DNA of 33,260 bases, taken from contig JAIRPV010000037.1 in NCBI GenBank assembly GCA_031256825.1, positions 1 to 33,260 of the forward strand, in the 5' to 3' direction. A program made the translations under genes and the position numbers. Source of the stretch: Oscillospiraceae bacterium. GTDB lineage: Bacteria; Bacillota; Clostridia; Oscillospirales; Acutalibacteraceae. The notes beneath the pieces are model-generated. The model made no database searches. It was not told the origin of the DNA and saw nothing but the letters and a program-made list of their open reading frames with translations. Positions within the stretch are counted from its first letter, which is position 1; each line of letters opens with the position of its first letter. Below, piece by piece: positions 4,093-20,736 of this stretch.

Positions 4093-5544
4093 CTAGTTAT
4101 AGTGTACCACAATCCTGCCGCTGCGCTCTGTTATTTTCAGCACCGTGCCCTCGTATTCCACCCGTGCGCCTTTGCCCGCCTCCACATTGTCGTATCCGTT
4201 GGGCAAATAAATTTCTGTGGGCAGCTCTTCGTCGCGGGGCGTGTAATCCAATGTAAAAATCTTGCGCTCCGTGTCAACGGCGAAGGAGCCGATGGTTCCG
4301 TTGACCGCCCGGGGATAGGGGCGCGCGAGCACGCGCATGATGGGCTGATCATAAAAGCCCGGGGTGTAGGTGAAATAGGTGTTGCTCCAGTTGCGCGCCT
4401 CAAAAAAGTCGAGCAGGTGGCTGATGTGGGGGAAGAACCCTTCGCCTTCGCCGCCGCCGCCCCATTCGCCAACTATCACAGGCACGTTCATGGCCGCCTG
4501 GTTTTGGGCCATCTGCCCGAACATAAACCCGGTGCGCTCGTTGCTGGCGAACTGGTAGGCCGGGGTGTCCACCAAAAAGTCGTAACCATGCGGGCTATAA
4601 ACAATCGCTTCGCCCGCAGGCGGTTCGATGCGGAACGGGATGCCCAGGTTGCACCAATAATTGTGTTCCAGAAGAATCACGCCGTTCGGGGTGATTTCCC
4701 GCAGGGCGGCGATCATGCGCGCAACGAAGGGCGCGTAGTGCTCTTTGTCGAATTTTTCAACGAGACCCGCCGCAACTTTTGTGACTTTGCCCATCACTGT
4801 CGGCGTGAGCACATCCAGCGCGTAGCCGCGCCGCTCTTTGTTCAGCGCGGTCTTCAGGAACTGAATACGGTGCACGCTGGGGCTGACGCCGCACACGCGC
4901 ACCAGCTTTGCCACAAGCTTGCGGAAGATCTTGCCGCCGGGCGTGCCCGGGAAAGGCTCGTTGAGCAAATCGAAGCCAAAAAAGGCGGGTTGGTTGGCAT
5001 ACCGCCGCGCGAGCGTCTGCCAGGCTTCGGCCAGATGCTCCTGCAACCCTTTGCCCAGCACTTTGTCGTTGGCCCAGAAGTGATCGAACGCGCGGTGCAC
5101 AGCCTTGTCCAGATAATAGCGATCCGACCAGACAAACCATTGGGGCTTTGCCTCATATTGATCGGTCAGGCAAGCCCAGTAGGGCATGCCCTTGCCCGGC
5201 AGCGCGTTCCCTTTCCCAAAATCAGAGTAAAGATCCTGGTGCATGTCCAGCATAATATAGATGTCGTATTTGGCGGCCAAAGCAAAAACTTCGTCTATCT
5301 TTTGCAGATAGGCTTCGTTGTATTGCCCTTTTTCCGGTTCGATATAGGCCCACATCAGCCCCAGCCGCAGCAGCCGGAAGCCAAGCTTTTGGGAGCGCCG
5401 GAAAAATTCCTCGTCCAAATGCTCGAGCCTGCCGTAGGGCGGCTCTTCGAGCATTTTGTCGTCCTTCAAATTAACCCCGTGAAATATGCACTCGCGGCCA
5501 TGCTCGTCCAGAAGGCGCGTGCCCTGTGTCGTAAAGCGCTGCAT
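4093..5544 (-). CDS. GH5 family glycoside hydrolase, endoglycoceramidase-like, cytoplasmic
   Basis: 483 residues. The (beta/alpha)8 domain carries the glycosphingolipid-hydrolase style signature: FHGVNLKDD near 21-29, IMLDMHQDLYSD near 97-108, the acid/base E196 in FDLLNEPFPGT, YSPHGYDF near 316-323, and the nucleophile E360 in VIVGEWGG. A small C-terminal beta domain (about 415-483) follows, as in endoglycoceramidases and related GH5 beta-glycosidases. There is no signal peptide, so it acts inside the cell, presumably on an imported glycoside or aglycone conjugate. GGGAGG lies 9 bases before the ATG. It has its own promoter and is divergent from the InlB-repeat gene pair. A close alternative is a GH5 glucosylceramidase or beta-primeverosidase-like enzyme; the substrate cannot be read from sequence. 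Confidence 0.85.
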   Translation of the reverse strand: MQRFTTQGTRLLDEHGRECIFHGVNLKDDKMLEEPPYGRLEHLDEEFFRRSQKLGFRLLRLGLMWAYIEPEKGQYNEAYLQKIDEVFALAAKYDIYIMLDMHQDLYSDFGKGNALPGKGMPYWACLTDQYEAKPQWFVWSDRYYLDKAVHRAFDHFWANDKVLGKGLQEHLAEAWQTLARRYANQPAFFGFDLLNEPFPGTPGGKIFRKLVAKLVRVCGVSPSVHRIQFLKTALNKERRGYALDVLTPTVMGKVTKVAAGLVEKFDKEHYAPFVARMIAALREITPNGVILLEHNYWCNLGIPFRIEPPAGEAIVYSPHGYDFLVDTPAYQFASNERTGFMFGQMAQNQAAMNVPVIVGEWGGGGEGEGFFPHISHLLDFFEARNWSNTYFTYTPGFYDQPIMRVLARPYPRAVNGTIGSFAVDTERKIFTLDYTPRDEELPTEIYLPNGYDNVEAGKGARVEYEGTVLKITERSGRIVVHYN

Positions 5545-5703: not shown

Positions 5704-5844
5704 GGCATCCCCCCGCTTTTGCGCCCATGCTTTACACCGGTTTAGAATTGCCGCGATTTCCCGTTTGGGTATTCGAAAATGAACAGCCTTTCCCAATCAA
5801 ATAAAAATTGGCTTCGGAGGATTTCCCAATCCCGCCGCAGCGCA

Positions 5845-5873
5845 TTGACATCGGCGGAACCGCGCGATAAAAT
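5845..5873 (+). promoter_or_regulatory. Promoter of the InlB-repeat gene pair
   Basis: TTGACA (5845-5850), 17 bases, TAAAAT (5868-5873). The predicted transcript start is about 37 bases before the ATG at 5917. Confidence 0.8.
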
Positions 5874-5916
5874 GGGATTAAGGCAGCCCAAATTGCAAAG
5901 AAGAGGAAGTATCGCA

Positions 5917-6711
5917 ATGGAATTGATTTGCCAGGAAGGACAGCATAACGTTTATTTTCTCGACAATACAGGCAGGCTCATCGGCACGCCCCTGCGCGTT
6001 GCGCACAACGAGCCGGCGCCGCCGCCGGAATACGAACCGCAGAGCGGCCGCATCTTCCTTTGCTGGAGCCGCAAAACGGATCGCATCATCGAAGATACCT
6101 ACGCCGTGGCCGTCACCCGCCCGGAAGAGCCGCTGGAGTTTTGCAGCGTGACCTATTTCGACGCGGCGGGGCTGGTGCTGGATATGAAACTTGTGCTGGC
6201 GGGCGAAGACGCCCCTCTGCCTGCCTATGCCCCCCCGGAAGGGTATCGTTGCCTCGGCTGGGAGATCCGATCGGAAGACGGCGAAGAACCGCAGCTTTTG
6301 CCGGCGGAAGAAAGCGCCCTGCGCGGCGTAACCGGCGACTGCTGCCTGTATGCCCGCTGCGAAGCGGAGGCCTGCCGGTTATATGCCCTCGATTTGCGGG
6401 AAGAAACCCGGCCCGGCCTGCAATTCCTGGGCAGCTACGGGTTCGGCGCAATAGTTTCGCAGGAAGATCTATTCTGCCTGCACCTGCGCAGCACCCGCTG
6501 CCTGCATCCGTTCCGGCTGACCCTGCAAAGCGACGCCATTTTGGCGCTGACCCCCCAGGGCGTTCGCGCCTTTGATCTGTCCATGCGGCCCATTGAGATG
6601 AACGCCATCTGGCTCATGCCCGACTACGATGCGGAGCAGGCCCGCGCCCAGTCCGCCCCGGCGCAGATTGTGACCTATCGCAACCGCCAGCTGATGCGAA
6701 AGGAGGCTTGA
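5917..6711 (+). CDS. Leaderless protein with InlB-type repeats
   Basis: 264 residues, unknown function. Residues about 10-51 and 75-116 each resemble the InlB/Listeria-Bacteroides beta-grasp repeat: an x-V-x-F-x-D-x-x-G start, a central proline-rich turn, and an end like GYRCLGW or GRIFLCW. The region after 150 is more divergent. Such repeats usually lie in secreted surface proteins, yet no signal peptide, transmembrane helix or cell-wall anchor is visible. I chose the ATG at 5917 because AGAGGAAG precedes it and the promoter lies just upstream; the frame stays open 46 codons earlier, but no start there fits. The next gene follows within 5 bases and has the same repeat type, so the two likely act together. 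Possible roles are a cytoplasmic scaffold or a protein exported by another route. Confidence 0.75.
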   Translation: MELICQEGQHNVYFLDNTGRLIGTPLRVAHNEPAPPPEYEPQSGRIFLCWSRKTDRIIEDTYAVAVTRPEEPLEFCSVTYFDAAGLVLDMKLVLAGEDAPLPAYAPPEGYRCLGWEIRSEDGEEPQLLPAEESALRGVTGDCCLYARCEAEACRLYALDLREETRPGLQFLGSYGFGAIVSQEDLFCLHLRSTRCLHPFRLTLQSDAILALTPQGVRAFDLSMRPIEMNAIWLMPDYDAEQARAQSAPAQIVTYRNRQLMRKEA

Positions 6712-6716
6712 TTGTT

Positions 6717-7100
6717 TTGCCGCTGAAAACCTATCGCGTGGAATTCTTCGACGCCAACGGCATGCCGCTGGGGGAGTGCCGCGCGGTTTATGGTTCCGCC
6801 GCGCATCCGCCGAAAGCGCCGCATCCGCCCAAAGGCTGGCGGTTTGATCACTGGGAACCCGAAGTTTGTTTTGTGCGCAGCAACCTGCGTTCTGTGGCGG
6901 TCTACGCCCCGAAGGAATATTTGGTGACATTTATGAGCGAAACCGGCACTGTGCTCAAGCGGGAATATGTGCCCTACGGGGGCGACGCCACCCCGCCGCA
7001 ATACCACGCCTGCGGCCGTGCCGCCCGCTGGAGCGGCCCCACGCAAAACATCCGCCGCGCGGAAACGTTCCGGGCGCAGTTTGAGGGCGCGGTAGCGTAA
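6717..7100 (+). CDS. Second leaderless InlB-repeat protein
   Basis: 127 residues that consist almost entirely of two InlB-like repeats, about 6-48 (VEFFDANGMPLGE, ending WRFDHW) and 68-107 (VTFMSETGTVL, VPYGGDATPP). The likely start is TTG at 6717, 10 bases after AAGGAGG (6700-6706). A TTG at 6708 is too close to the ribosome site and overlaps the upstream stop. No export signal is visible. It forms a two-gene transcription unit with the preceding gene. An original single gene split by a stop is possible, because the two proteins together would give a continuous four-repeat chain, but the good ribosome site argues for two genes. Confidence 0.7.
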   Translation: MPLKTYRVEFFDANGMPLGECRAVYGSAAHPPKAPHPPKGWRFDHWEPEVCFVRSNLRSVAVYAPKEYLVTFMSETGTVLKREYVPYGGDATPPQYHACGRAARWSGPTQNIRRAETFRAQFEGAVA

Positions 7101-7130: not shown

Positions 7131-7166
7131 ATAAAAAACCCCCGGGCAGTCGGCTGTCCGGGGGTT
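7131..7166 (-). terminator. Intrinsic terminator of the GH130-mutase gene
   Basis: A 13-base stem (7137-7149 with 7154-7166, one G-U wobble) closes a 4-base loop. Read on the minus strand it is followed by six T (7138-7133). It starts 18 bases after the stop codon of the fusion gene and may also stop readthrough from the plus-strand pair. Confidence 0.9.
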
Positions 7167-7184: not shown

Positions 7185-10058
7185 TTAGCGGAAGATTTCC
7201 TTTGCCTTGCCAAGCAGTTCCTCGCAGCGCGCTTTCGCGGCTTCGAGCGGCGCGCCGGGGGCAAAGGCTTCGGCCGTGCAAACGTAGAGCTTGATTTTTG
7301 GCTCCGTGCCAGAGGGCCGCAGCACCAGCCAACTGCCGTCGGCCAGGAACAGCTTTACCACATCGGACATGGGCAGGGCAATGGGCGTTGTTTCGCCCGT
7401 GCGCAGATCGCGCCGCTCGCGGGCAAGGTAGTCTTCCACGGCAACCATGCGCTCGCCCGGCAGCAGGGCCGCGGCGTCCCTGCGCAGTTCGGCCATCCAT
7501 CCGGCAATCTGCGCCAAACCCTCCGCGCCTTTTGCTTCGTGGTTGTATAGTTCCTCCGCTACAGGGCCATAGGTTTCGTATAGCGCTTGCAGCGCCTGCC
7601 AGAGCGTCATCTTTTTTTCTTCTTTATACCAAAGGGCCATTTCGGCAACAAGCGCGGCGCTGATCACAGCGTCTTTGTCGCGGCAAACATCGCCCGCAAG
7701 ATACCCGTAGCTCTCTTCGAATCCAAAGATAAAACTGTGTTCCCCGCTGGCCTTCCATTGATCCATGCGCTCGCCGATATACTTGAAGCCTGTCAGAACC
7801 AGATCGGCCGTTACCCCGTTTTGTTTGCAGATGCGTTCGGCCAGGGTGCTGGTGACAATGGTCGTCACAATGGCCGGGCGCGGCGGCAGGCCGCCAAGCT
7901 CTTTTTGGGCGCGGATCAGATAGTCGCACAGCAGCGCGCCGGTCTGGTTGCCGCTGAGCACCACGTATCCGCCGCTTTCATCCTGCGCGAGCACGCCAAT
8001 GCGGTCGGCGTCGGGATCCGTGGCAAAGATCACGTCGGGCCGCAGCGTCCGCGCCAATTCCATCGCCGGCGCAAAGGCCTCGCGCTCCTCGGGGTTGGGC
8101 TTTTTTACGGTCGGGAAAGAGCCGGCCGCGTCTTGCCCCGCCTGCGAAGGCACAACCGTAACATCGCTGAACCCCGCCCGCGCCAGCAATTGCGTCACAG
8201 GAATCAGCCCCGTGCCGTGCAGCGGCGAATAGAGCAACTTCAACGCCCCGCCGCGCTCTTTGGTCCATTCCCGCCGCGGCAGCCAAGCTTCCGTCGCGGC
8301 ATAATATAGCTCGTCGAACGCCTCGTCCAGCAGGATTGTTTCGCCTGTCTCCCGCGTTTTGTCTCCCGTTTCCTGGAACACATCAAGGGCCTCGATTTCC
8401 GCCAGCACCTGCCCGGCGGCCTCGTCCGTCAGCTGCCCGCCGGTGGCGTTATAGACTTTATAGCCATTGTATTCCTTCGGGTTGTGGGAGGCGGTTATCA
8501 CAATGCCCGCGTGGCACTCGTATTGCCGCACGGCAAAGCTGAGCATGGGCGTCGGGCGCGGCCCGGCGGTGAGATAGACCAAAAAGCCGTTTTCCCGCAG
8601 CACATTGGCGCTGTGCTGGGCAAACTCCCTGGAGCAGCGCCGGGTATCGTAGGCAATGGCGGCTTTCAGCCGCTCCCCCGGGTACGCCTTCTTCAGATAA
8701 TTGGCCAAACCCTGTGTGGCGCGGCCCACCATATAATGATTCATGCGGTTGCTGCCCGCGCCGATTTCCGCGCGCAGGCCGCCCGTGCCGAAGGCCAGGC
8801 TGCGATAAAACGCGTCGGTGCGGCGTGGCCCGTCGCAGGCAAGGGCTTCCAGTTCCGCCCGCCAAAGGTCGCCTTGCGGCACATGCTCCAGCCAGCGCTC
8901 GTATTCCAGATAGGTCTCGTTGCGGCGGATCAAATCCATGCGCTGCCGCACACAGTCGGCGCTGCGGCCCGGATCGCGCGGGGTATGGAACGCGTAATCC
9001 AGCAGCAAATCGATGGTTGTTGTGGCAACATGCAAACGCGTGTCGCTGGAAGCGTAATAGATTGCCACTTCGTTTCGTTCATTGACCGCCGCGCCGTTGC
9101 TGAACACCACGTTCGAAACGTCGCCCAGGCGTTCGCCGCCCAGCGGCGCAAGAAAATAGCCGGAAGGTTCGGCTGTCACGCGCCAAGGCTCCGCCAAATC
9201 CGTGATGAATACATACAACACATAGCGCAAACCCGCCGCCGTGTTGCGCACGCCGTGGGCAATGTGCAGCCAGCCGCGCGGCGTTTCAATCGGCACGGCG
9301 CCCGCGCCGTTTTTGCTCTCTGTAATCTGGTGATACCGCCGGGGGCTGACCAGGCGCTCTTCTTCAATCGCCGCGTGTTCCATGTCGTCGCACAGCGCAA
9401 AACAAATGCCCCCGCCGCTTCCCGCCTGGATAAAGCCGTCCTGCGGCCTTGTCAGCAGGGCGTAGCGGCCGTCAACTTTTTTGGGGAACAGCACAACGTT
9501 GCGCTGCTGCGGCGAACGGGAAATCAGGTTCGGCAAGCGCTCCCATGTGATCAAATCGCGCGTGCGGGCAATTCCGCAGGCGGCCCGCGCCGCGCCAATC
9601 TCCGGGTCGTCGGGGTCTTTGCTTTCCGAGCAAAATAGGCCATAAATCCAGCCGTCCTCGTGCGCGGTCAGGCGCATGTCGTAAACATTCACTTCATCCG
9701 GTTCTGTGTCGGGCAGGGCAATCGGGCGCAAAAAGCGGAAGCCTTCGGTTGCGCGCCGGCTGGCAGCCAGCGCAAAAAAAGATTTGCGGTCGCTGCCTTC
9801 CACGCGCACGGCAAGATAGTATGTGGCATCCCGGTAGATCGCGCCGCTGTTGAAAACGGCGTTCACCCCAAGGCGCTCCAGGGCGTTGGGGTTGGCCGCC
9901 GGGTCGAAGTCAAACTTCCAGCCGGGCGGAATATGATCCCGGGTCAGCACCGGGTTTTCGTAGCGCTGATAAATGCCATTATATGGTCCCGCGGGGGCGT
10001 TCGGGCGGTCAACCAATGCTTGATAAGCGCGCAGCTGCGCGCGGATCTGCTCCTGCAT
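7185..10058 (-). CDS. Fused GH130 mannosylglucose phosphorylase and phosphosugar mutase
   Basis: One 957-residue ORF with two complete enzymes. Residues about 25-382 are a GH130 domain of the 4-O-beta-mannosyl-glucose phosphorylase type: [15 protein letters not shown] (33-47), FNSGAI (69-74), the proposed catalytic Asp D127 in [32 protein letters not shown] and YYASSDTR. Residues about 384-957 are an alpha-D-phosphohexomutase of the PgcA type: [11 protein letters not shown], the catalytic S524 in TASHNP, the metal site DPDADR (681-686), the sugar loop FGFEES (778-783) and the phosphate site RPSGTEP (914-920). All key residues of both are intact. The expected chemistry is mannosylglucose plus phosphate to mannose 1-phosphate plus glucose, then mannose 1-phosphate to mannose 6-phosphate. 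The start is ATG 10058, with GAGG 7 bases upstream. An internal ATG at 8939 (M374) could give free mutase. [12 protein letters not shown] insert lies at 562-572. Monocistronic, with its own promoter and terminator. Confidence 0.9.
8344..8376 (-). repeat. In-frame QETG/RETG repeat in the mutase domain
   Basis: On the minus strand GGGAGACA occurs twice, 14 bases apart (8367-8360 and 8353-8346), exactly two 7-base periods, preceded by CCAGGAAAC. It encodes [12 protein letters not shown] in a variable loop of the mutase domain. It matches the purine-rich heptamer family seen in topB at 1602-1661. Confidence 0.65.
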
Positions 10059-10092
10059 GAAAATACCTCGCTGTTTCTCTTTCTCTCCTCCT

Positions 10093-10121
10093 ATTTTAAC
10101 ACAGCCAAGAGAAAAAAGCAA
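10093..10121 (-). promoter_or_regulatory. Promoter of the GH130-mutase gene
   Basis: On the minus strand TTGCTT (10121-10116), 17 bases, TAAAAT (10098-10093). It has the same hexamers and spacing as the GH5 promoter. The predicted 5' leader is about 28 bases. Confidence 0.7.
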
Positions 10122-17363: not shown

Positions 17364-18422
17364 TCAATTGCGCGACGCCGCTTCAAACAAGCCATTGAGA
17401 TAGGCCGCGCCAAGCGCGCGGTCGTAAAGACCATAGCCCGGGCGCGCCACTTCGCCCCAAATCATGCGGCCGTGGTCAGGGCGAACATAGCCGTCAAAGC
17501 CAATTTCGTGGAGAGTCTTCACGATTTCCGCCATATCCAGCGATCCTTCAGCGGAAAGATGCGCTGTCTCGTTAAACCAACCTTCGCGCACCAGGATATT
17601 GCGCAGGTGGGCAAAATAAATGCGAGGGCCAATTTCGCGGATCATGGCGGGAAGATTGTTGCGCGGGTTCGCCCCGAGGGAGCCTGTGCAAAAGGTGATA
17701 CCGTTGCGTGAGCTCGGCGCGATCGACTGCAATCGACGGTAATCGTCAATATTCTTGATAATTCGCGGCAATCCGAATATGCCCCACGGCGGATCATCCG
17801 GATGAATTGCCATATTCACGTCGTATTCCTCGCAAACCGGAAGAATTTCGTGAAGAAAATTCCCAAGATTGCGCCACAAATCTTCCTCCGTAACCTCCTG
17901 ATATCGCTCAAAAAGCGCCCTGATTTCCGGCAAACGGTGCGGTTCCCAGCCGGGCATGGCGTAGCCGTGTGAATTTTCGTCAATCTCACGAAACATCTCC
18001 TCCGGCCGCTTGCCCTCCACCTGCCGGCCATCATAGCTCAAACAGGTCGAGCCATCGGGCAAAACCATACGCAAATCGGTGCGGGTCCAATCAAAAACCG
18101 GCATAAAATTATAGCAAATCACCTTCACGTTCGCCCGCGCCAAATGCCGGATGCTCGTCTTATAATGTTCGACATATTTCGCGGATTCCGGCGCGCCAAG
18201 CTTGATATCCTCGTGGACGTTGACGCTTTCCACGCATTCCATGGTAAGCCCGGCATCCTCGATTTCGCGCTTTAACGACAATATTCGCTCCAACGGCCAA
18301 GGCTCTCCGGCGGGCAAATCGTGCAGCGCGGGCACCACGCCGCGCACACCGGGGATCTGCCGAATCTGCGCAAGAGTAACGGTGTCGAGCTTGCTGCCAA
18401 ACCAACGCAGCGTCATTTGCAT
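17364..18422 (-). CDS. uxuA: Mannonate dehydratase
   Basis: 352 residues, normal length. It dehydrates D-mannonate to 2-keto-3-deoxy-gluconate in hexuronate breakdown; the enzyme needs Fe(II) or Mn(II). Family motifs: TLRWFGSKLD at the N-terminus, VCYNFMPVFDWTRTDL-like (here VICYNFMPVFDWTRTDL), NMAIHPDDPPWGIFGLPRI, FCTGSLGANP, YFAHLRN and a C-terminal GYVRPDHGRMIWGE. ATG 18422 has GAGGTG 8 bases upstream. It is the third gene of the GPH-isomerase-uxuA-feoB group (27-base gap to the isomerase). No uxaC, uxuB, kdgK or kdgA is in the window. Confidence 0.95.
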   Translation of the reverse strand: MQMTLRWFGSKLDTVTLAQIRQIPGVRGVVPALHDLPAGEPWPLERILSLKREIEDAGLTMECVESVNVHEDIKLGAPESAKYVEHYKTSIRHLARANVKVICYNFMPVFDWTRTDLRMVLPDGSTCLSYDGRQVEGKRPEEMFREIDENSHGYAMPGWEPHRLPEIRALFERYQEVTEEDLWRNLGNFLHEILPVCEEYDVNMAIHPDDPPWGIFGLPRIIKNIDDYRRLQSIAPSSRNGITFCTGSLGANPRNNLPAMIREIGPRIYFAHLRNILVREGWFNETAHLSAEGSLDMAEIVKTLHEIGFDGYVRPDHGRMIWGEVARPGYGLYDRALGAAYLNGLFEAASRN

Positions 18423-18449
18423 AAAATTTACACCTCATTCATGATAATT

Positions 18450-19211
18450 TTACTTTTGAAGGCTCTCCAAATAGCTCCAGCTGGCCGCCAGTTCGTCGAA
18501 GGGGTCGCGGCCATAGCAGTTGTCCTGCTCAACAAAGGCAAATTTCGTGCCCGCGGCCGCGCAAGCCTCCGCAATGCCCCTCCAGTTCATGTTGCCGCTG
18601 CCAACGGCGGCAAATCGGCGCTGCTGCGCGCGCGTAATCGCCATATCCTTGTAGTGCACGCAGTCGACGCGCCCCGACAATTGGCGCACAAGTTCGCGAA
18701 CATCCGCCCCGGCGTGCTGCACCCAAAAAACGTCGAGCGTAAATCCCAGCAGGGCGGGGTCGCTTTCGTTGACGAAAACGTCAAAAATCCGTTCTCCGCT
18801 TTGTCGCGCGAATTCAAAACTGTGGTTATGGTACATGAATTTCAGGCCCGCGCCGGCAAACGCCCGCATGGCGGGGTCGTAATCGCGCAGAAACTTGCGC
18901 GCGCCCTCGGGCGAATGATACTTCAGCGGAAGAAAGCCCAGGCCAACATAGGGGCAGCCCAACAGTTTGTGCTCTTCTATCACACGTTCCGTGTCGTTGA
19001 GGAGCCGCTCAGGTTCTGTGTGAGTTAATTTCACGCTGAGGTTCAGCGCGTCACAGTGCTGCTTGAACTCGTCGGGCCGGTATTCAAAACCGGAGCACTG
19101 CACAATGGGATAACCAATTTCGGCCAAGCGCCGGAGCACCGCAGCATGATTTTTCTGCTTTTTCAGGGCGTCGCGCAGGGTATAGAGCTGCGCGCCGATG
19201 ATAATCGACAT
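18450..19211 (-). CDS. Sugar phosphate isomerase/epimerase-like TIM-barrel protein
   Basis: 253 residues of the xylose-isomerase-like TIM-barrel superfamily (AP_endonuc_2 fold). The N-terminus reads IGAQLYTLRD; metal-site motifs seen are YHNHSFEF, LGFTLDVFW and VHYKDM, giving the usual Glu/Asp/His set, with a C-terminal FVEQDN. The reaction is not fixed by sequence; possible roles are epimerisation of a ketose, keto-acid or inositol-related sugar. It sits between a GPH symporter (40-base gap) and uxuA (27-base gap), so a role in feeding a uronate or related sugar acid into the mannonate step is reasonable. The ATG follows GAGGTG. Confidence 0.85.
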   Translation of the reverse strand: MSIIIGAQLYTLRDALKKQKNHAAVLRRLAEIGYPIVQCSGFEYRPDEFKQHCDALNLSVKLTHTEPERLLNDTERVIEEHKLLGCPYVGLGFLPLKYHSPEGARKFLRDYDPAMRAFAGAGLKFMYHNHSFEFARQSGERIFDVFVNESDPALLGFTLDVFWVQHAGADVRELVRQLSGRVDCVHYKDMAITRAQQRRFAAVGSGNMNWRGIAEACAAAGTKFAFVEQDNCYGRDPFDELAASWSYLESLQK

Positions 19212-19251
19212 AATGTCACCTCATTCTGGCCGTGATTTCTTTCAAATTTCG

Positions 19252-20736
19252 TTATACCGCGCCTTCCTCTGCTCTGCGCTGTGCGAGGCCTTCGGTGATG
19301 ACCTTGCGCTTTTCGCCCGTTAAATCATAAAACAGCGTGGGCACGATGCACAGCAGCAGCGAGATGGCCGGCACAATCGACACCAGCGCAAACATGCCGC
19401 CGCGCACGGAGCTTAGCTGCGCCGCGGGCACGCTCAGGAGCGTTGCTCCTTTTTCGTTGATGGCGCCCATATCCAGGTGGACGATTTGGTACGTTAACAC
19501 AATAGAAGACGTGGCAAGGGCGTTGGCAAGCTTCACAACAAAGCTCTGGCAGGCTTGCCCCAGGCCGTTTTGGCGGAATCCGCTTTCATACTCCATCGCG
19601 TCAAGGCTGTCGCCAACCATCGCGTAACTGACCACATTGATAATACCCAGCGGGATCGAGCACAGCAGCAAACAGGGCAAAAGCGCCCAAAAATGTTCGT
19701 AGCCGATGAAATACATCACAACCGCCGCAACGCCGCCCAGGCCGCAGGAGCCAACGATCAGCTGCTTGTAGTTGAATTTGTCGATGAGTTTTGGCACCAG
19801 AGCCATGGTGATAAACATGCCCGCCGCAATCACCGCCTGGAACACCATCTGCACCGTGGACATGCTCGACTGAATGGCCTTTGCCTGCTCGGCTGGGGGC
19901 ATGCTCCGCAGGGCGGCCCAATCGCCAAGATAGAACACATAGCGCGCCACATGCGCCGCGCCCGCCTGGAACATATAGCGCCCGCCCGAAAGAATCCCCA
20001 TCGCGGCGGTGAGCATCAGCGGCTTGCAGCCAAAAACGGCGCGCAGCGCGCCCTTGCCGCCCTCGCTTTTTTGCGGCGGCAGCGGCACGCGCTCTTTCAC
20101 GCGGAAAGGCGTAATAAAATACAGCAGCCCGCCAACCCCCGCGCACAAAGCGGCGGTGATAATGAACTTTAACTGGTCAATCAGGCGAAGATCGGAGGAA
20201 AAACGCGCCAAAACCGGCCCTAAAAACATCACTAGCGCCATGGGCACCGCAGAGCCAACGCCGTTAACGGTGCGGCTGATGGTGACGATTTTTCCGCGCT
20301 CCCAAGCCCCGGGGGCCATGGCGTTGGAAAGGCTCCAAAAGGGGATATCCGCCGTCGTATAAAGCATCCCCCAGCAGGTATAGGTCACTGCGGCATAGAG
20401 CATTTTCCAGCTGCCCGGAATGGGCGGAGCATAAAAGAGCAAAATGGTAAAAACGGCAATTGGCAGCGGCATAACGAAGAGATAAGACCGCATTTTGCCC
20501 CGTTTTGGGTTGGCGCGGTCCATCACAATGCCCATGAGAGGATCGTTCACCGCATCCCAGACGCGGGCTAGCAGCATCAGGAAGAACACAAAGATAGAAC
20601 CCAGCCCCATGACGTTCATGTAGAAATCCGAGATGTAGGAAGACATGATGGCGTACATCATTCCCTGCCCCAGGCCCCCCAGGTAGTAGCTGATCCGCTC
20701 TTTTTTCGGCACCACGCCGGCATATTGTTTTGGCAT
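19252..20736 (-). CDS. GPH-family sugar:cation symporter (MelB-like), uronate operon
   Basis: 494 residues with about 12 hydrophobic helices. The GPH signature is LLARVWDAVNDPLMGIVMDR (about 55-74), with the conserved Asp of the cation/sugar site. Other GPH features are ISRTVNGVGS and GDSLDAMEYESGFRQNG near helix 10. Family members import melibiose, glucuronides, xylosides or isoprimeverose with Na+ or H+. Its partners (isomerase and UxuA) suggest a glucuronide or a galacturonide-type substrate. AAAGGAG precedes the ATG. It is first in its operon, behind a leader of about 190 bases with repeats and a candidate terminator. Confidence 0.9.
   Translation of the reverse strand: MPKQYAGVVPKKERISYYLGGLGQGMMYAIMSSYISDFYMNVMGLGSIFVFFLMLLARVWDAVNDPLMGIVMDRANPKRGKMRSYLFVMPLPIAVFTILLFYAPPIPGSWKMLYAAVTYTCWGMLYTTADIPFWSLSNAMAPGAWERGKIVTISRTVNGVGSAVPMALVMFLGPVLARFSSDLRLIDQLKFIITAALCAGVGGLLYFITPFRVKERVPLPPQKSEGGKGALRAVFGCKPLMLTAAMGILSGGRYMFQAGAAHVARYVFYLGDWAALRSMPPAEQAKAIQSSMSTVQMVFQAVIAAGMFITMALVPKLIDKFNYKQLIVGSCGLGGVAAVVMYFIGYEHFWALLPCLLLCSIPLGIINVVSYAMVGDSLDAMEYESGFRQNGLGQACQSFVVKLANALATSSIVLTYQIVHLDMGAINEKGATLLSVPAAQLSSVRGGMFALVSIVPAISLLLCIVPTLFYDLTGEKRKVITEGLAQRRAEEGAV

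Follow-up and report, generated by a model that had tools for sequence, protein, structure and literature searches.

A GH130 subfamily 1 phosphorylase and an alpha-phosphohexomutase joined in one polypeptide and kept across a bacterial genus

Can one gene encode two consecutive enzymes of mannoside catabolism, and if it does, how did the joined protein arise and what does the joining bring? The window, meaning the whole stretch of 33,260 nucleotides that was analysed, is contig C40 of a draft genome (G000; 2.05 Mb, 97.7% complete, 42 contigs). Translation of its minus strand between 7185 and 10058 gives an open reading frame of 957 residues without an internal stop. As the initial annotation had claimed, this single frame holds two full domains, a GH130 mannosylglucose phosphorylase and a phosphosugar mutase. 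The features of the locus, from the promoter side to the end of the gene, are as follows.

10093..10121, minus strand: possible promoter, TTGCTT - 17 nt - TAAAAT (read by eye)
10066..10069, minus strand: Shine-Dalgarno-like GAGG, 7 nt 5' of the ATG (read by eye)
7185..10058, minus strand: fused GH130_1-phosphohexomutase gene, 957 aa, ATG at 10058, TAA at 7185-7187
8913..10058, minus strand: GH130 subfamily 1 (4-O-beta-D-mannosyl-D-glucose phosphorylase) domain, residues 1-382
9678..9680, minus strand: codon of D127, the proposed GH130 catalytic acid, with Tyr126 before it (alignment; excerpts of PMC4599007)
8883..8963, minus strand: residues 366-392, one continuous predicted helix (AlphaFold2 model)
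7188..8906, minus strand: alpha-phosphohexomutase domain, of what we take to be the PgcA type, residues 385-957, PGM_PMM I-IV
8487..8489, minus strand: codon of S524 in the TASHNP active-site loop, presumably the phosphoserine of the alpha-phosphohexomutase family (alignment)
8001..8018, minus strand: DPDADR, residues 681-686, presumed metal-binding loop (alignment)
7710..7724, minus strand: GFEES, residues 779-783, presumed sugar-specificity loop (alignment)
7299..7319, minus strand: RPSGTEP, residues 914-920, presumed phosphate-binding loop (alignment)
7133..7166, minus strand: terminator-like hairpin, AACCCCCGG ... CCGGGGGTT, then a T run (reading and folding)

The N-terminal half carries a Glyco_hydro_130 match at residues 65-354, above the curated Pfam cut-off. 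Its top solved relatives are two mannosylglucose phosphorylases, RaMP1 of Ruminococcus albus (5ay9, E 3.7e-160) and BF0772 of Bacteroides fragilis (3was, E 6e-137), which match far better than any other GH130, with the alignment reaching residue 380. The similarity to characterised GH130_1 enzymes is full-length and lies above that to other GH130 proteins. The model of the fused protein is 62% identical to RaMP1 and 55% identical to BF0772 (VIA-align); residues 1-385 match up to the last residues of both, and both chains stop where the mutase of the fused protein starts. The catalytic Asp and the preceding Tyr are common to all three proteins. All 11 fused rows and all 29 other GH130_1 rows have D127, and the pair Y126-D127 is constant in all 40. 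A Tyr beside the catalytic Asp marks the phosphorylase rather than the hydrolase type, as in the GH130_1 and GH130_2 phosphorylases, according to the excerpts of PMC4599007. A second PF04041 match in the same genome (contig C8), considered as another GH130, belongs to a GH32-like protein instead.

The C-terminal half contains PF02878, PF02879, PF02880 and PF00408 in this order within residues 422-926, all above cut-off. The 45 mutase rows (11 fused, 34 other) all have S524, D683, D685, R686 and R914, as well as E781, E782 and S783, so the catalytic residues listed early on for both halves (D127, S524, DPDADR, RPSGTEP) are all in place. The fused mutase groups with stand-alone phosphohexomutases of about 575 aa and not with GlmM, which is encoded by another gene in G000. 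It aligns with these stand-alone enzymes over most of its own length, at 40-47% identity and with the motifs in common. In a scan of named genomes, 80 of 80 loci listed (of at least 589 relatives) match within residues 365-957 at this identity; since all match the mutase half, the scan is silent on fusions in named species. The closest solved relative is 26% identical (VIA-align), which constrains the sugar preference only weakly. Twelve positions mark the clade of GH130-linked mutases, none of the 12 in a catalytic motif. One fused protein (L215, from G001) carries in its mutase domain an insertion of about 26 residues, rich in Lys, Ile and Glu, that none of the other aligned fused proteins has.

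Between the halves there is almost no linker, as had been noticed at the outset: GH130_1 ends at residue 382, the mutase starts at 385, and a predicted helix spans both. In the AlphaFold2 model (mean pLDDT 92.9, pTM 0.81) the end of GH130_1 would run straight into the first mutase helix, and the block means of pLDDT across residues 361-400 are 85, 90, 96 and 95. This helix, residues 366-392, comes from a single-chain model, in which neither the orientation of the domains nor loop 208-214, of low confidence, is certain.

The genus retains the fusion. Nothing interrupts the frame at the junction in 13 of 14 genomes, of which 11 have the gene at full length (G000-G004 and G008-G013) and two have junction-spanning pieces at contig ends (G005, G006). 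The remaining genome, G007, has two genes, in which the stop of the phosphorylase and the start of the mutase overlap by 8 nt and GGAGG precedes the second ATG; this looks like a true gene pair. Both halves have a low dN/dS, over five genome pairs 0.05-0.18 (GH130 half) and 0.08-0.20 (mutase half), at dS values of 0.76 to 1.59 that bring the distant pairs near saturation. Mean pairwise identity within the genus is 0.71 for the GH130 half and 0.60 for the mutase half. That the fused frame is an artefact of assembly or sequencing, or that one half is dead, is hardly credible. The genus genomes are drafts of 42 to 520 contigs, which would leave room for such errors, but the open frame in 13 of 14 assemblies rules out an artefact or hidden frameshift at the junction, including the missed stop or frameshift near 8900-8960 for which a check had been advised, and the low dN/dS and kept catalytic residues of both halves speak against a dead domain. 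An internal start that would release a free mutase was also considered; by eye, no Shine-Dalgarno sequence precedes an in-frame ATG at the G000 junction, which speaks against it. The last ~55 mutase residues occur once more in G006, 0.4 kb past the fused gene (L216:2623-2787), through either a duplication or an assembly error.

The initial annotation also gave the gene its own promoter and terminator. The terminator is likely, on the strength of the hairpin and T run, whereas the promoter is only possible, with consensus matches at 8 of 12 positions against a scan cut-off of 9. A consensus scan of the window listed neither, and the 101-nt stretch with the hairpin is no more stably folded than expected from its composition (z -1.15, with 24 of 200 shuffles as good). 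The fused gene sits between one divergent and one convergent neighbour.

How far the fusion extends was followed with the GH130 half as query (E <= 1e-40), which gave matches in 16 of 250 family, 18 of 394 order, 25 of 391 class and 13 of 398 phylum genomes, in samples that overlap and each include G000. Frames of more than 900 residues were found only in genomes of the same genus, namely in four of the 16 matching family genomes, and in G000 alone in the order, class and phylum samples. The only other frame above 600 aa was that of G853 (782 aa), an epimerase fusion. In the samples searched, then, the fusion is confined to its own genus, and the objection named at the outset, relatives that always have two separate genes, holds outside the genus but fails inside it, with 13 of 14 genomes fused. 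Among 66 other GH130 loci, scored with flanks of up to 1.5 kb, some shortened by contig ends, 34 have an adjoining epimerase of the PF07221 type and four (G021, G231, G140, G853) an adjoining mutase of the fused type; 29 have neither, and G853 alone has both.

All 12 fused rows fall into a single clade of the mutase tree (123 rows, quick method; SH-aLRT 90). Nearest to this clade is G007, followed by G231 with G140 and then by G021, all with a GH130 adjoining the mutase. Thirteen rows of this tree were flagged for odd composition, and most of the 12 named are fused or linked, which may inflate their grouping. The GH130 tree (90 rows, 76 different) likewise unites the 11 fused rows in a clade of their own (100/94). 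Its sister group consists of G007, G231 and G140 (98/77, unstarred), followed in an open fork by G021 and by G253, which has no adjoining mutase. G007 thus stands alone beside the fused clade in the one tree and with G231 and G140 in the other; its overlapping genes could represent a stage on the way to the fusion or a state of their own. The gene-pair lineages nearest to the fused clade belong to two other genera. Because both trees give one fused clade near gene-pair lineages, the simplest reading is that a single fusion took place in the genus, from an adjacent pair.

The GH130-linked mutases are a group apart from the clade formed by the stand-alone ~575-aa mutases of 20 other family genomes, and lie nearer to six Clostridium loci. 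None of the 80 named-genome mutase loci listed, these six included, has a GH130 in the flanks covered. Seven ORFs beside three of the Clostridium loci encode polysaccharide export, lipid II flippase, chaperone or TPR proteins, or proteins of no known type. Since a search at E <= 1e-30 gave no further mutase of the fused type in G021, G231 or G140, the linked copy seems to have replaced the usual mutase of the family.

The chemistry that the fusion would unite has been described before. In the excerpts of PMC6385246, Roseburia intestinalis converts mannosylglucose to mannose 1-phosphate, mannose 6-phosphate and then fructose 6-phosphate without ATP, an epimerase having made the mannosylglucose from mannobiose. 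The phosphorylase and mutase steps are carried out by separate enzymes, RiGH130_1 and RiPgm, and RiPgm, which requires Mg2+, converts both mannose 1-phosphate and glucose 1-phosphate (PMC6385246). A phosphomannomutase is part of the mannan locus of R. hominis in the excerpts of PMC9784577, and those of PMC4264767 make the energetic case for ATP-free mannose 1-phosphate. The R. intestinalis system (RiMep, RiGH130_1, RiPgm and a GH1-mannose-6-phosphate isomerase protein), as far as these sources describe it, thus shares with the fusion the same two consecutive steps and the ATP-free phosphorolytic entry, but has separate proteins in a mannan locus with an epimerase, whereas the genus has one chain, no PF07221 epimerase found and no mannan locus seen. 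The ATP-free route to mannose 6-phosphate first proposed for the fused protein is therefore already known from separate enzymes; its product-substrate logic holds, and the channelling proposed with it is conjectural. In the open-licence literature we found no description of a GH130-mutase fusion, and a review of glycoside phosphorylases has no word beginning 'mutase' or 'fused' (PMC8950772). What appears to be new is the one-chain domain architecture; the two-step module and the ATP-free logic are known.

A different fusion onto the same kind of phosphorylase occurs in G853, a relative at class level. There, a PF07221 protein, which we infer to be a cellobiose 2-epimerase, is fused N-terminally to a GH130_1 phosphorylase (L201:6865-9207, 781 aa). 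The locus also encodes an ABC permease, a further GH130, a CE2 esterase, a mutase and a GDSL lipase. The epimerase-phosphorylase protein is apparently a second, independent fusion. As in the genus, a neighbouring pathway step, by its presumed role, has been joined to the phosphorylase; the partner in G853 is the upstream epimerase at the N-terminus, with the mutase separate nearby, whereas the genus fusion bears the mutase at the C-terminus.

All 14 genus genomes have a match to the ManA model, which in six of them, G000 included, exceeds the cut-off. The PF07221 epimerase, in contrast to the known epimerase-phosphorylase pathway, was found in none of the 14 (five of them under 90% complete), with a model that does detect the G853 epimerase (E 1.5e-35). 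A GH26 mannanase is present in two of 14 (G007, G008), in a search limited to that mannanase family. With no PF07221 and only two GH26 genomes, the source of mannosylglucose in the genus is uncertain.

G000 has three PGM_PMM_I proteins, namely the fusion, GlmM (506 bits, cut-off 447.55) and an 820-aa protein resembling mannose-1-phosphate guanylyltransferase (228 bits, cut-off 440). The last is encoded on contig C29 (L284:1718-4177), and eight of 14 genus genomes carry a PGM_PMM_I match in frames 772-820 aa long. In G000, the genome annotated for this purpose, no mutase of the fused type other than the fusion itself was found; the other fused genomes were judged from match lists, in a set with five of 14 assemblies under 90% complete. 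G007 also has a 549-aa mutase of a different type. GlgC, GlgD, RmlA and glucose-1-phosphate cytidylyltransferase are above their cut-offs in G000, and a GalU-like protein is just below (307 vs 326.8). Because the fused mutase is the sole one of its type and enzymes using glucose 1-phosphate are present, it is the best candidate for a general phosphoglucomutase. It probably serves glucose 1-phosphate metabolism as well, and is probably not a dedicated phosphomannomutase.

Starting from the domains, the kept residues, the conservation with low dN/dS and the predicted helix, and taking the origin from the trees, we consider it probable that the protein is a cytoplasmic, bifunctional phosphorylase-mutase of single origin, with a mutase that accepts two sugars, and that it forms an oligomer carrying the mutases. 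The N-terminal domain would convert 4-O-beta-D-mannosyl-D-glucose and inorganic phosphate into alpha-mannose 1-phosphate and glucose. By analogy with RiPgm and from the fusion itself, the C-terminal domain would convert mannose 1-phosphate to mannose 6-phosphate, which ManA of G000 could turn into fructose 6-phosphate. Conversion between glucose 1- and 6-phosphate is very probably another reaction of the mutase domain, which would then be the general phosphoglucomutase of the cell. The fusion of the adjacent genes would have made the C-terminal helix of the phosphorylase continuous with the first mutase helix. The corresponding phosphorylase helix forms the oligomer in the B. fragilis enzyme, and the likely particle is a phosphorylase oligomer bearing mutase domains, which might keep the product near its consumer.

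Part of this reading is shared with a plainer one, to which we give a lesser though real chance: the mutase may be chiefly a glucose phosphomutase with minor use of mannose 1-phosphate, tethered by a chance deletion between adjacent genes that merely fixes a 1:1 ratio. The domain assignments are common to both, so their likelihoods overlap. The plainer reading gains from the overlap of the genes in G007, from the mutase being the sole one of its type in G000 alongside the enzymes that use glucose 1-phosphate, from the EES loop, which ordinary mutases have as well, and from the place of the linked-clade positions outside the catalytic motifs. It sits poorly with the retention of the fusion by 13 of 14 genomes in so divergent a genus (mean identities 0.71 and 0.60), with a linked mutase lineage that differs from that of the 20 other family genomes, and with the ability of RiPgm, a mutase of the same pathway, to use mannose 1-phosphate (excerpts of PMC6385246).

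A biosynthetic direction seems improbable to us. In it, mannose 1-phosphate from phosphorolysis would be reserved for GDP-mannose, or mannose 6-phosphate would be converted via mannose 1-phosphate into a mannosyl-glucose product. Phosphorolysis is reversible, which would permit such a direction. A GDP-mannose role has been proposed for GH130 mannose 1-phosphate in Thermoanaerobacter (excerpts of PMC4264767), and G000 has the guanylyltransferase-like protein, at 228 bits for a cut-off of 440. Against this, a mutase fused to the phosphorylase would use up mannose 1-phosphate before it could go into GDP-mannose, and ManA is present in G000.

The preferred bifunctional reading can be extended, with about the same lesser chance as the tether: the sole general phosphohexomutase would be locked into the phosphorylase oligomer, mannose 1-phosphate would be passed on directly, and the central supply of glucose 1-phosphate, for glycogen and nucleotide sugars, would be tied to mannosylglucose scavenging. 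The scavenging of ready-made mannosylglucose left by other bacteria would then explain why the search found no epimerase.

The fusion offers a natural Rosetta-stone argument for assigning the mutase step to mannosylglucose phosphorolysis, and related genomes present the phosphorylase and mutase in separate, adjacent, overlapping and fused arrangements. A housekeeping mutase may have been captured by a catabolic phosphorylase. The fused protein is also a test case for whether joining consecutive enzymes brings channelling, and a phosphorylase-mutase in one chain could serve ATP-free synthesis of hexose phosphates.

No mannan-locus context for the fused gene emerged among the neighbours scanned. 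In the window, these neighbours are leuB, a GH5 gene and whiA-hisD-hisC-hisB, with no mannan genes among them. Of the 20 neighbouring ORFs scanned from 13 related loci, only those of G853 resemble a mannan locus, and the genus has no shared one in the neighbours covered. Elsewhere, the gene lies near a GH2 beta-galactosidase (G003, G001), a sugar MFS transporter (G008), IMP dehydrogenase (G009), RNase Y (G010), a topoisomerase (G011) or an M23 peptidase (G012); barring weak MFS matches, the other genes of the window were not found beside the fusion in the other genomes. The GH5 protein (4093-5544, minus strand), with a Glyco_hydro_5_C domain, is encoded 1.6 kb past the end of the fused gene, and its sole NCBIfam match is endoglycoceramidase I (131 bits, cut-off 700). 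Between them, convergent with the fused gene, are two ORFs of 310 and 130 aa (5779-7100, plus strand) without a Pfam or NCBIfam match at E <= 0.001. Farther along the window (17364-20736, minus strand), a mannonate dehydratase, a xylose-isomerase-like barrel protein and an MFS_2 sugar transporter stand in a row, possibly a cluster for hexuronate catabolism.
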